Assembly (NCBI GenBank): GCA_964017235.1
Contig: OZ024934.1
Span: 88,998,706-89,062,705, forward strand
Length of the DNA stretch: 64,000 nucleotides
Direction: 5' to 3'
From: Sabellastarte sp. h YS-2021
Lineage: Eukaryota > Annelida > Polychaeta > Sabellida > Sabellidae
How positions within the stretch are numbered: the first letter of the stretch is position 1; the number at the start of each line of letters is the position of its first letter. The translations under genes and the position numbers were made by a program. Below are positions 43,301-46,300 of this stretch, piece by piece. The notes under the pieces were generated by a model. It saw only the letters and a program-made list of their open reading frames with translations, was not told the DNA's origin and searched no databases.

Positions 43301-46300
43301 CCGGAAACATTTGAAGAGGGTGAGTTATCTGACGCAGAGGAATCCCCAGACTTGGAAACCTCAGACCCGGACCGGGTCCTCAGTGAAGATCAAAATTACC
43401 GCGAGACTGTGAGAGGCGTCCGCGCGTTCATGGGATGGACACACATTCCTGACCTGGAGTTTTCTCCGCAATCCCGCACTGATAATCCTTGGGCAGGTCA
43501 CCGTTCTCAGTCTGTGGGCAAGATTTCTGTGGATCTTCCACCGGAAGATTGGTTGTGCCGAAAACTAGAAACTCTAAACCTTGTACTGATAGAAGGATAT
43601 CCTTCAAAATCTAGTGATCCAGGTGGCCTGCATGTGGACCAGTTCCTCAGACCCCCAAAATCCCAGAGCAGATGGTATGGGATACACCTGGCGGAGCCTA
43701 CAGATCCAACTAGGCCGGGTAAATCAGTGAATTCTTGGCCAAATGATGCGGCGAAGATCAACAGTTCATTCCCCAGGATTTCAACCATATCTTCTACATC
43801 TCCTCAGCCTCCATCCCGCCCACTATCACAAGACACTATGCGTAAGTGGGAGAAAGCAGCAAAAGAGTCTTCATATATTTGCAACCAGTCAGCGGGGTTT
43901 AATCGCTGTATCACCAAAATACAGGATGCCTTCCAAGAACAATTGCATATTTTACAAAGTGAACTTAAGAAAGGCAAGTCCTCTGTCAAAGCTCAAGGTG
44001 CATTGGATGAACTTTTATACTTATCCTCATTTAACCAGAATGTCAGTTTCGCCATGGGCAAATCTTTACAACATTTGGCAGACTTTACATTTGTGCAGAT
44101 GGCGAATTTGACCCTACTCCGTAGGGACTCATACTTGGAAGCTGTGAAACCGGGAATTAAACCAGATACTTTCAATTCCTTGAGAAATTGTCCCCTGAAT
44201 GGATATGGGTTATTTCCAGATGCTGCTATTAGAAAAGCTGAGGATGAAATCAACCAGTTAGAAGCTTCCCGACGTACTTCCCAGCCCGGCCCGGGCCGCG
44301 GGGGGTTCGCCGGTAGAGGCAGAAAGCAGAGATACCAACCCTACAGTACTGGTTGGAAACCTCAAGACACTGCTAAATCGACTTCTCAGGCCGGAAAGGA
44401 ACTACTGGCTTGGAAAGCGTTTGGTTCCCGCAATAGAGGCCGGGGTGGTCAGCCCGGACGTGGTACCAAGATGGCTCATGAGAAGACACAGTATAAATGA
44501 CAATTACTGCAAGTCAAGTCCGGTGCCGGTGGCCCGGCCAGTCAGTTCTGTAGAAAGTGTCATAACAAGAAACTCTTTTGTATCTGTTCCAACAAATGTT
44601 TCTTATCATGTTGTATGTCGTGTACCTACTGTAACAAGGTGGCAGTCGCAAAAGAAAGACGTAAGGCCAAAATCAAAGATCAAAAGTCAAATAAAGTGTG
44701 TGAAAAGTGCTTCTTTTGTCGGTCACTTTGTTTCTGCTCCAAATGTTCCAAATGTCCCCAATGTTGCAAGTGTCCAACCAGTGGGGGGACGTCTTCAGAG
44801 TTTTTGGGAAATATGGGCTCACAAGGGTGCAAACCCAAAAGTAGTGTCCATATTAAAGGAGGGTTATGTTCTCCCCTTCAAAGTCAGACCTCCCTTGGTA
44901 AGGGATCCCCTGATAGTAAGCGGCTATGCAAACCCCATCAGAGACTCCCACTTGCAAGAAGCTGTACAAGCTCTGATCGAGAAAAAGGCAGTAGAGAGGG
45001 TCAGGGTTCAAACCTCACTAGCCTTTTTCAACAGACTGTTCATTGTCCCAAAGCCGAACCACAAGTGGCGGCCAATCTTGGACCTCAGTACTCTAAATCA
45101 GTTTTTATGCGTAAAAACATTCAAAATGGAGACTCCAGAGACAATCCGGACCTCTCTACAACAAGAGGAGTGGGTGACATCGCTAGACTTCAGCGACGCC
45201 TACTTCCACATTCCAATTCACTTCACATCCCGAAAATTCCTCAGGTTCCACTTTCAGAACCAGTCGTACCAGTTTCGGGCACTTCCCTTTGGCCTGTCAA
45301 CAGCTCCCATGGAGTTCACTGGTGTGGTCAAAGAGGTCAAGTTAATGGCTCAGTCACAGGGTATAAGAATCCACCAGTACCTAGACGACTGGTTGATTCG
45401 AGCCCCTACCAAAGAATCTTGCCACCAGGGAACCCAGTCCCTCCTAGCCCTTTGCCAGGAGTTGGGCTGGATGGTAAACATGCAAAAGTCAGAACTGGAA
45501 CCCCAACAAGTCTTCGACTTCGTAGGCTACCAGTACGACCTACTCAACGGAGTAGTCAGGCCTACTCAAAACCGTTGGGAAGCCCTTCAACAAAAAATAA
45601 CAGTGCTTTTACAGAACAGATTTTGCCGAGTGAGAACTTTCATGTCTCTTATAGGTCTTCTCACTGCGACAGAAAAACAGGTGCCCCTAGGCAGACTGCA
45701 CATGAGGCCTATTCAGTGGCACCTCAAGAAGCACTGGAGAGTCCCAGAATCTCTGGAAAAGGAGATCCCAATTCCAAGGTCTCTCCATCAGTACCTGCAG
45801 TGGTGGACCCAAGAGGAAAATGTCCTAAAGGGTCAGCCCTTACACCCCCTGCGACACGCAGTTCAAATCTTTACAGACGCCTCAAAAGAAGGCTGGGGTG
45901 CTCACTTAGGCGACTTCACAGCAAGCGGTACTTGGTCAGTGCCCGAAAGCAAGTTGCACATAAACTTCTTAGAACTAAAAGCCGTGTTGTTAGCACTAAA
46001 AAGATTACAACATTTAGTGCAAGGAAAGGTCGTCCTGATTGCCACAGACAACACTACGGTTGTAGCATACATCAACAAGGAAGGAGGTATGAGGTCAGGC
46101 TCACTCTGTGCCCTTCTTTGGCGGCTCCTATGTTGGTGCAGCCTCAATCAAATAGTACTGAAGGCCAGACACATTCCAGGCCGTCTGAATGTAATTGCAG
46201 ACAAATTGTCTCGCCAAAGGCAGGTCATTCAGACGGAGTGGTCCCTCCATCAAGAGACCTTCGACCTCCTTTGTCAAACCTGGCATTATCCCCGAGTGGA

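Follow-up and report, generated by a model that had tools for sequence, protein, structure and literature searches.

In the part of Piednoel et al. 2011 covered here (PMC3266345), DIRS1-like retrotransposons carry Gag, pol and tyrosine recombinase (YR) genes together with inverted terminal repeats and internal complementary regions. A long overlap of pol and YR is described there in half of 28 DIRS1-like elements and in none of the 5 molluscan elements. Overlapping ORFs are also described for DIRS-1 of Dictyostelium in the covered part of a review (PMC5633606). Type I readthrough is defined as UAG CARYYA in the covered part of PMC11166343, where a comparative argument like the one used here was applied to ilarviruses. 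Gammaretroviruses place a lone stop codon between gag and a same-frame enzyme, and a minority Gag fusion is made by readthrough (PMC5009743, in part). In Candida Tca2, a single Gag UGA stands in the corresponding position, and the flanks of this stop alone failed to direct readthrough in yeast (PMC2194720, in part). In the antizyme reporter of Loughran et al. (PMC9841425, in part), UGA C cut termination, and both +1 shifting and readthrough were altered.

Herein, the window is the whole stretch of DNA that was analysed, 64,000 nucleotides in length. Its inverted repeats and gene content identify a DIRS1-like retrotransposon, element 2, spanning 42240-48436 (Table 1). The terminal arms, 42259-42431 and 48217-48389, are 173 nt long and 99% complementary. 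The arms of the two internal complementary regions measure 41 nt (100% complementary) and 62 nt (97% complementary) and overlap each other at 48101-48104; in DIRS1-like elements, a short circular junction is expected at an overlap of this kind. Both the inverted terminal repeats and the two internal complementary regions of DIRS1-like elements are therefore present. The gene content is likewise that of the group: besides Gag and a tyrosine recombinase, there is a pol carrying RT and RNase H. The gag gene was assigned by position, and the pol domains were found by Pfam (RVT_1, 1.4e-22; RT_RNaseH, 1.3e-6). The Pfam support for the YR part is weak: PF02899 (Phage_int_SAM_1) scored 22.8 bits, just over its cut-off of 22.3, and PF00589 (Phage_integrase) scored 21.7 bits, under its cut-off of 27.1. 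Behind RNase H, where DIRS1-like elements have a methyltransferase domain, no methyltransferase exceeded the Pfam cut-off in pol, though the region is present by length. The long pol/YR overlap of element 2 is of an already known kind. A frame common to gag and YR, the putatively leaky stop and the Cys module are not mentioned in the covered part of PMC3266345, and in these points the element differs from the DIRS1-like elements described there.

Table 1. Positions of the features of elements 2 and 3 within the window.
Feature	Position	Strand	Basis or content
Left terminal repeat, element 2	42240-42431	.	Inverted repeats I1 and I3; arm 42259-42431
Left terminal repeat extension, element 2	42240-42280		Matches internal complementary region 48064-48104
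Right terminal repeat with extension, element 2	48217-48436	.	Inverted repeats
Internal complementary regions, element 2	48064-48162	.	48064-48104 pairs with 42240-42280; 48101-48162 pairs with 48375-48436
gag, element 2	42545-44500	+	First ATG of the open frame to TGA; ORF 42521-44500
Conserved island TAAA TGA CAATTA CTG	44494-44509	+	Proposed readthrough site, possible +1 shift site
gag-frame continuation, element 2	44501-47713	+	Cys module, then a passage over pol with no stop, then tyrosine recombinase; 1070 codons in all
Cys core, element 2	44597-44782	+	Conserved in the gag/YR frame
pol (RT, RNase H), element 2	44502-46811	+	+1 frame
Tyrosine recombinase (YR) part of the frame, element 2	46640-47713	+	Pfam
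Element 3, matching arrangement	61411-63999	+	Gag stop TGA CAA TCA, then Cys module; 862 open codons, up to the window end
pol of element 3, downstream of the gag TGA	61415-63742	+	+1 frame

The gag frame of element 2 ends with CAG TAT AAA TGA CAA TTA CTG, the TGA being at 44498-44500. An earlier note on this DNA had pointed to the TGA-CAA-TTA ending as a CARYYA pattern and to 19 Cys in 75 codons behind it. The pattern is there and is repeated in element 3 as TGA CAA TCA, and a recount gave the same 19 Cys (residues 17-91 behind the stop). The same note had ended the segment at 44790 and considered a short Gag C-terminal module, which had to be revised. The frame is actually free of stops for 1070 codons from 44501, crossing pol, to the stop at 47713. 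The Cys stretch is the head of this long frame, and the tyrosine recombinase is its last third. One frame holds both gag and YR, which a single TGA separates. The TGA of element 3 is at 61411-61413, and its Cys module aligns with that of element 2 with 45% identity. The gag of element 3 is interrupted farther upstream. The end of its open frame reads like the element 2 recombinase, and a Pfam search with this piece, which is cut by the window end, gave no match. A stop-start overlap, ATGA at 44497-44500, was considered and dismissed: its ATG belongs to the third frame, where a stop follows after 18 codons.

The openness of the Cys-YR frame was compared with synonymous-codon shuffles of pol. 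No stop occurs in this frame over 769 codons in element 2 and 775 codons in element 3, while 33.1 and 31.8 were expected, and the minimum in 2000 shuffles was 19 and 18, respectively. The third frame over pol holds 59 stops in element 2 and 63 in element 3. Behind the module, the depletion is confined to the three stop words, and TAC, TGC and TCA occur at undepleted levels. Chance as the source of the long frame is ruled out by the synonymous shuffles together with the depletion of stop words only. These counts indicate that the openness of the Cys-YR frame is selected.

A third DIRS-like element, element 1 (14107-16954 and 33055-35655), is interrupted by a long insert. A Cys module is absent from it, its gag terminates in TAA (15808), and its YR is in frame with gag. 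The gag/YR frame of element 1 is kept open against pol, with 0 stops vs 13.6 expected in the 3' part and 4 stops vs 19.8 expected in the 5' part. The insert contains very long inverted repeats at 18829-20066 and 30527-31778, with 729 nt (96%), 295 nt (99%) and 230 nt (100%) complementary. Smaller inverted arms of 222 nt (95%) and 161 nt (93%) at 23036-27014 surround minus-strand ORFs at 24145-25434. By eye, these ORFs resemble DIRS gag without pol, and perhaps represent a non-autonomous element. At 16904-17779, a 48-nt repeat is found as 13 overlapping register copies with exact 48-nt spacing, and both strands carry a periodic ORF across it (plus strand, 16959-17816; minus strand, 16965-17945). 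A 333-aa ORF at 38301-39302 on the minus strand is, by eye, a non-LTR reverse transcriptase with an FYADD motif.

Further copies were collected from the element's own genome (1.79 Gb), in which the Cys-core pattern gave 1163 + 1129 = 2292 matches and the reversed control gave 0. The 62 copies used are elements 2 and 3 plus 60 from the first 100 matches listed, all on contig C1. A single genome is the source of all DNA copies, which share descent and were picked with the Cys-core pattern. A stop site was accepted with at most 3 mismatches to a 17-nt motif. By this rule 54 of the 62 copies passed and 8 were dropped; the motif was perfect in 42 copies, and composition-shuffled controls never had fewer than 4 mismatches. 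The Cys-YR frame is open for at least 1000 codons in 16 of the 54 copies, alongside 769-789 open pol codons.

Fourfold sites were then compared between pol in the overlap and YR alone in three pairs. The differing sites were 129/203 (0.64) and 63/107 (0.59) for element 2 vs L025, 111/192 (0.58) and 72/109 (0.66) for element 2 vs L013, and 111/240 (0.46) and 53/126 (0.42) for L025 vs L013. The two classes of sites differ about equally, and therefore no protein constraint on the long pol-crossing passage is visible in these three pairs. The passage is kept translatable.

The Cys core shows a different behaviour. An intact module frame was found in 37 of the 54 copies, 9 of which are distinct at less than 85% identity. 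One of them, L038, was left out of the core analysis, as its 3' end leaves the frame. Identity was measured against a null in which the same substitutions were placed at random. Among the 8 distinct copies, the identity of the core was 0.644 vs the null of 0.488 (sd 0.008) in the Cys frame, and 0.546 vs 0.504 (sd 0.008) in the pol frame. The interval from the stop to the core is slightly over the null in both frames (Cys frame 0.395 vs 0.325; pol frame 0.381 vs 0.335). Behind the core, pol is the conserved frame, at 0.651 vs 0.460, and the Cys frame stays at 0.481 vs 0.472. Isolated changes follow the same division: in the core, 141 changes leave the amino acid of the Cys frame unaltered but replace that of pol vs 62 of the reverse kind, and the corresponding counts behind the core are 9 and 52. 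Of the 419 core codon pairs with Cys in at least one copy, 379 have it in both copies. These comparisons indicate that the Cys core is under purifying selection in the gag/YR frame, a property which the earlier note had proposed to check. Its wording that the Cys frame is far better conserved than pol has the direction right and is fair for the core only. Over the whole stretch the difference in 9 copies is small (0.538 vs 0.502), and the wording was too strong.

A profile search scored 8000 candidates and gave 576 related proteins, the best 120 of which were listed. The full Cys core was found by regex in 54 of 146 proteins, 20 of them distinct, and long frames related to the Cys-YR frame occur in many more proteins. 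As supposed before, the module has no recognizable known domain: no match was found by Pfam with 5 modules (best Hemotin, E 0.1, under the cut-off), by NCBIfam with 1 module, or in the PDB with a profile of 10 modules (best E 0.63). The AlphaFold model of the module, built from 35 sequences, is poor (pLDDT 45.9), and no relatives were confirmed in viral contigs and genome contigs.

The stop site was compared among the 54 copies. The stop codon is TGA in 53 copies and TTA in 1, and the following hexamer agrees with CARYYA in 50 (CAATTA 26, CAATCA 23, CAGTTA 1). The other hexamers are TAATTA (2), CAATTT (1) and CAATCG (1). TGA and CARYYA occur jointly in 49 of the 54 copies, which answers the check on stop-context conservation suggested earlier, and TAAA precedes the stop in 53. 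Two single copies are noted separately. In L030 the gag stop reads TTA, with CAATTA behind it, and in L036 TGA is followed by TAA, yet a long open frame lies behind; TGA TAA occurs in 2 of the 54 copies.

The copies were grouped into 13 clusters on the flanks, with the motif excluded, and CARYYA is present in 11 of them. Pairwise identity between the clusters is 0.91 over the 16-nt island TAAA TGA CARYYA NTG (-4 to +11), a value raised by the selection of copies with a motif that itself contains the conserved letters. The flanks have an identity of 0.47 upstream and 0.32 downstream in an ungapped comparison, in which indels depress the downstream value. None of the island's pol-frame wobble positions (-3, 0, +3, +6) varies among the 13 clusters, and therefore the pol peptide is not the cause of the island conservation. 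The pol-frame peptide [IL]NDN[YQ][CS] marks the stop site in 21 of 146 related proteins, reading INDNYC in 18. Among the 21 proteins, 12 are close to element 2, and P0017, P0027, P0065 and P0131 are among those that are not.

Such an island is also the trace that any RNA signal would leave, and it could be a splicing or other RNA signal, with the Cys-YR frame spliced to a start codon. No AG at a single position between +9 and +69, however, is common to at least 7 of the 13 clusters in the ungapped comparison, and the changes permitted in the island match CARYYA. Splicing is thus considered improbable. Public gene models (P0028, P0017, P0027 and others) hop between the gag, pol and Cys frames. 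Evidently their introns were predicted to dodge the stop, and they are not evidence of splicing.

The NTG at +9 (44507-44509 in element 2) is near-invariant and is not called for by the known CARYYA signal. Its T and G are kept in 52 of the 54 copies, and it reads CTG in 42, TTG in 6, ATG in 4 and another triplet in 2. Position -3 is T in all 54 copies, and position +4 is T in 40 and C in 14. T at -3 with T or C at +4 makes a poor start context.

The kept T and G, and the ATG at this place in some copies (L015, L038), would suit a separate production of the Cys-YR frame by termination and reinitiation at the NTG, 9 nt after the first base of the stop. Later ATGs could serve in the same way, and in the element 2 family codon 38 is an ATG, which is employed in gene models such as that of P0004, from a cluster of 701 sequences. 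The NTG is nevertheless CTG in most copies and in a poor context in all 54, and the later ATGs are not constant. Counted from 0, the first in-frame ATG among the 37 copies is at codon 2, 38, 63, 110, 111, 123, 251, 596 or 631, and 1 copy has none ahead of its first stop. Most relatives of element 3 have it at codon 596, after 20-21 ATGs of other frames. No consistent in-frame ATG behind the gag stop, which the earlier note had also proposed to look for, was found among these 37 copies. Reinitiation would moreover leave CARYYA without a reason, and we hold it to be a poor prospect.

We strongly infer that frame 0 is reached from gag, over the TGA. Entry by readthrough of the UGA, which would make a minority Gag-Cys-YR fusion, is the best explanation, with a probability of about 0.7. 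It is a weaker claim than entry across the TGA as such, and it is ranked above reinitiation or splicing, which even as a pair are unlikely. The site variants CAATTA, CAATCA and CAGTTA are exactly the changes that CARYYA permits. The points against readthrough are the UGA in place of UAG, the lack of a conserved RNA structure behind the stop, the TGA TAA of 2 of the 54 copies, the NTG outside CARYYA and the sampling of related copies from a single genome.

In the proposed mechanism, the TGA ending gag would be a programmed leaky stop, at which most ribosomes would terminate and release Gag. A minority of ribosomes, aided by the CARYYA hexanucleotide, would decode the UGA and continue through the Cys module, across pol in the second frame, and into the tyrosine recombinase. 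The product would be a Gag-Cys-tether-YR fusion of about 1700 residues. With this fusion, the recombinase could reach the Gag particle at a low dose, together with a module that probably binds metal. The tether, the metal binding and the packaging with Gag are plausible by analogy with Gag-Pol fusions. Readthrough itself and its rate, like zinc binding, packaging and what the module does, are inferred.

The site can be placed among the known systems as follows. With type I readthrough of the tobamovirus type (PMC11166343, in part), it shares the CARYYA adjoining the stop and an in-frame extension without a conserved AUG. It differs in having UGA and not UAG, in belonging to a retrotransposon, and in the extension of about 1070 codons that mostly overlaps another gene. 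As TGA stands instead of UAG, the site would therefore work like, yet is not, classical type I. The type II signal, UGA followed by CUA or CGG and often a stem-loop, was not found among the hexamers of the 54 copies. No RNA structure behind the stop was consistent among 9 copies folded with two window lengths each; 1 of the 18 windows (L010) had a z of -3.1, and the others ranged from -1.2 to 1.0. The lone stop between gag and a same-frame enzyme and the predicted minority Gag fusion are shared with gammaretroviral Gag-Pol readthrough (PMC5009743, in part), and the single stop is shared with Candida Tca2 (PMC2194720, in part). Unlike these, the enzyme of element 2 is a tyrosine recombinase after a Cys module, pol is in the +1 frame, and no conserved pseudoknot was seen in the copies here. 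Antizyme-type +1 frameshifting (PMC9841425, in part) is similar in having a UGA that permits stop, readthrough or +1 shift, as proposed here; the element differs in its P-site codon AAA, in showing no conserved structure, and in that both alternative frames are long and open.

The entry into pol was examined similarly. The pol frame of element 2 is open from 44262, and its openness upstream of the stop is at the chance level in 9 copies. Inside the module, 10 copies that were chosen and are related by descent hold 0 pol-frame stops vs 7.4 expected (minimum 2 in 2000 Cys-codon shuffles). The same 10 copies hold 0 Cys-frame stops vs 59.2 expected (minimum 42, pol-codon shuffles). From these counts, ribosomes seem to enter pol, too, close to the gag stop, perhaps by frameshift. 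The island might serve solely for +1 frameshifting into pol, at AAA TGA C, with the recombinase made otherwise; pol is in the +1 frame, and UGA C affects +1 shifting as well as readthrough in the antizyme reporter (PMC9841425, in part). Frameshifting alone would leave the CARYYA pattern, the purified Cys core and the stop-free frame into YR unexplained. AAA is not known as a shift-prone P-site codon. This alternative is therefore judged very improbable. A +1 shift added to UGA readthrough is compatible with the best explanation.

With both events at one site, a single UGA would have three outcomes: termination would give Gag, readthrough would give Gag-Cys-recombinase, and a +1 slip would give Gag-Pol, which would set the stoichiometry of the element. 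This proposal is tentative and falls somewhat short of an even chance. About 770 codons would encode both extended products in two frames, and one of these frames would be conserved as protein at its two ends alone, with a stop-free corridor and a tether between them; this part is held with the same reserve. If both frames are indeed entered at one stop, the element would possess a compact natural stop codon with three useful outcomes.

DIRS and tyrosine recombinase are not mentioned in the covered part of PMC5009743. Titles and abstract openings, a coverage that excludes most subscription journals, contained no description of DIRS readthrough, frameshift, Cys module or Gag-Pol, nor of how DIRS-type elements balance recombinase vs polymerase. 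UGA readthrough would give a concrete candidate answer for this enzyme dosage, namely a 16-nt signal at the gag stop. The Cys module family is present in many elements. UGA readthrough would also offer a reason for the long pol/YR overlaps in DIRS-type elements, because a readthrough ribosome can arrive at YR only if no stop halts it along pol.
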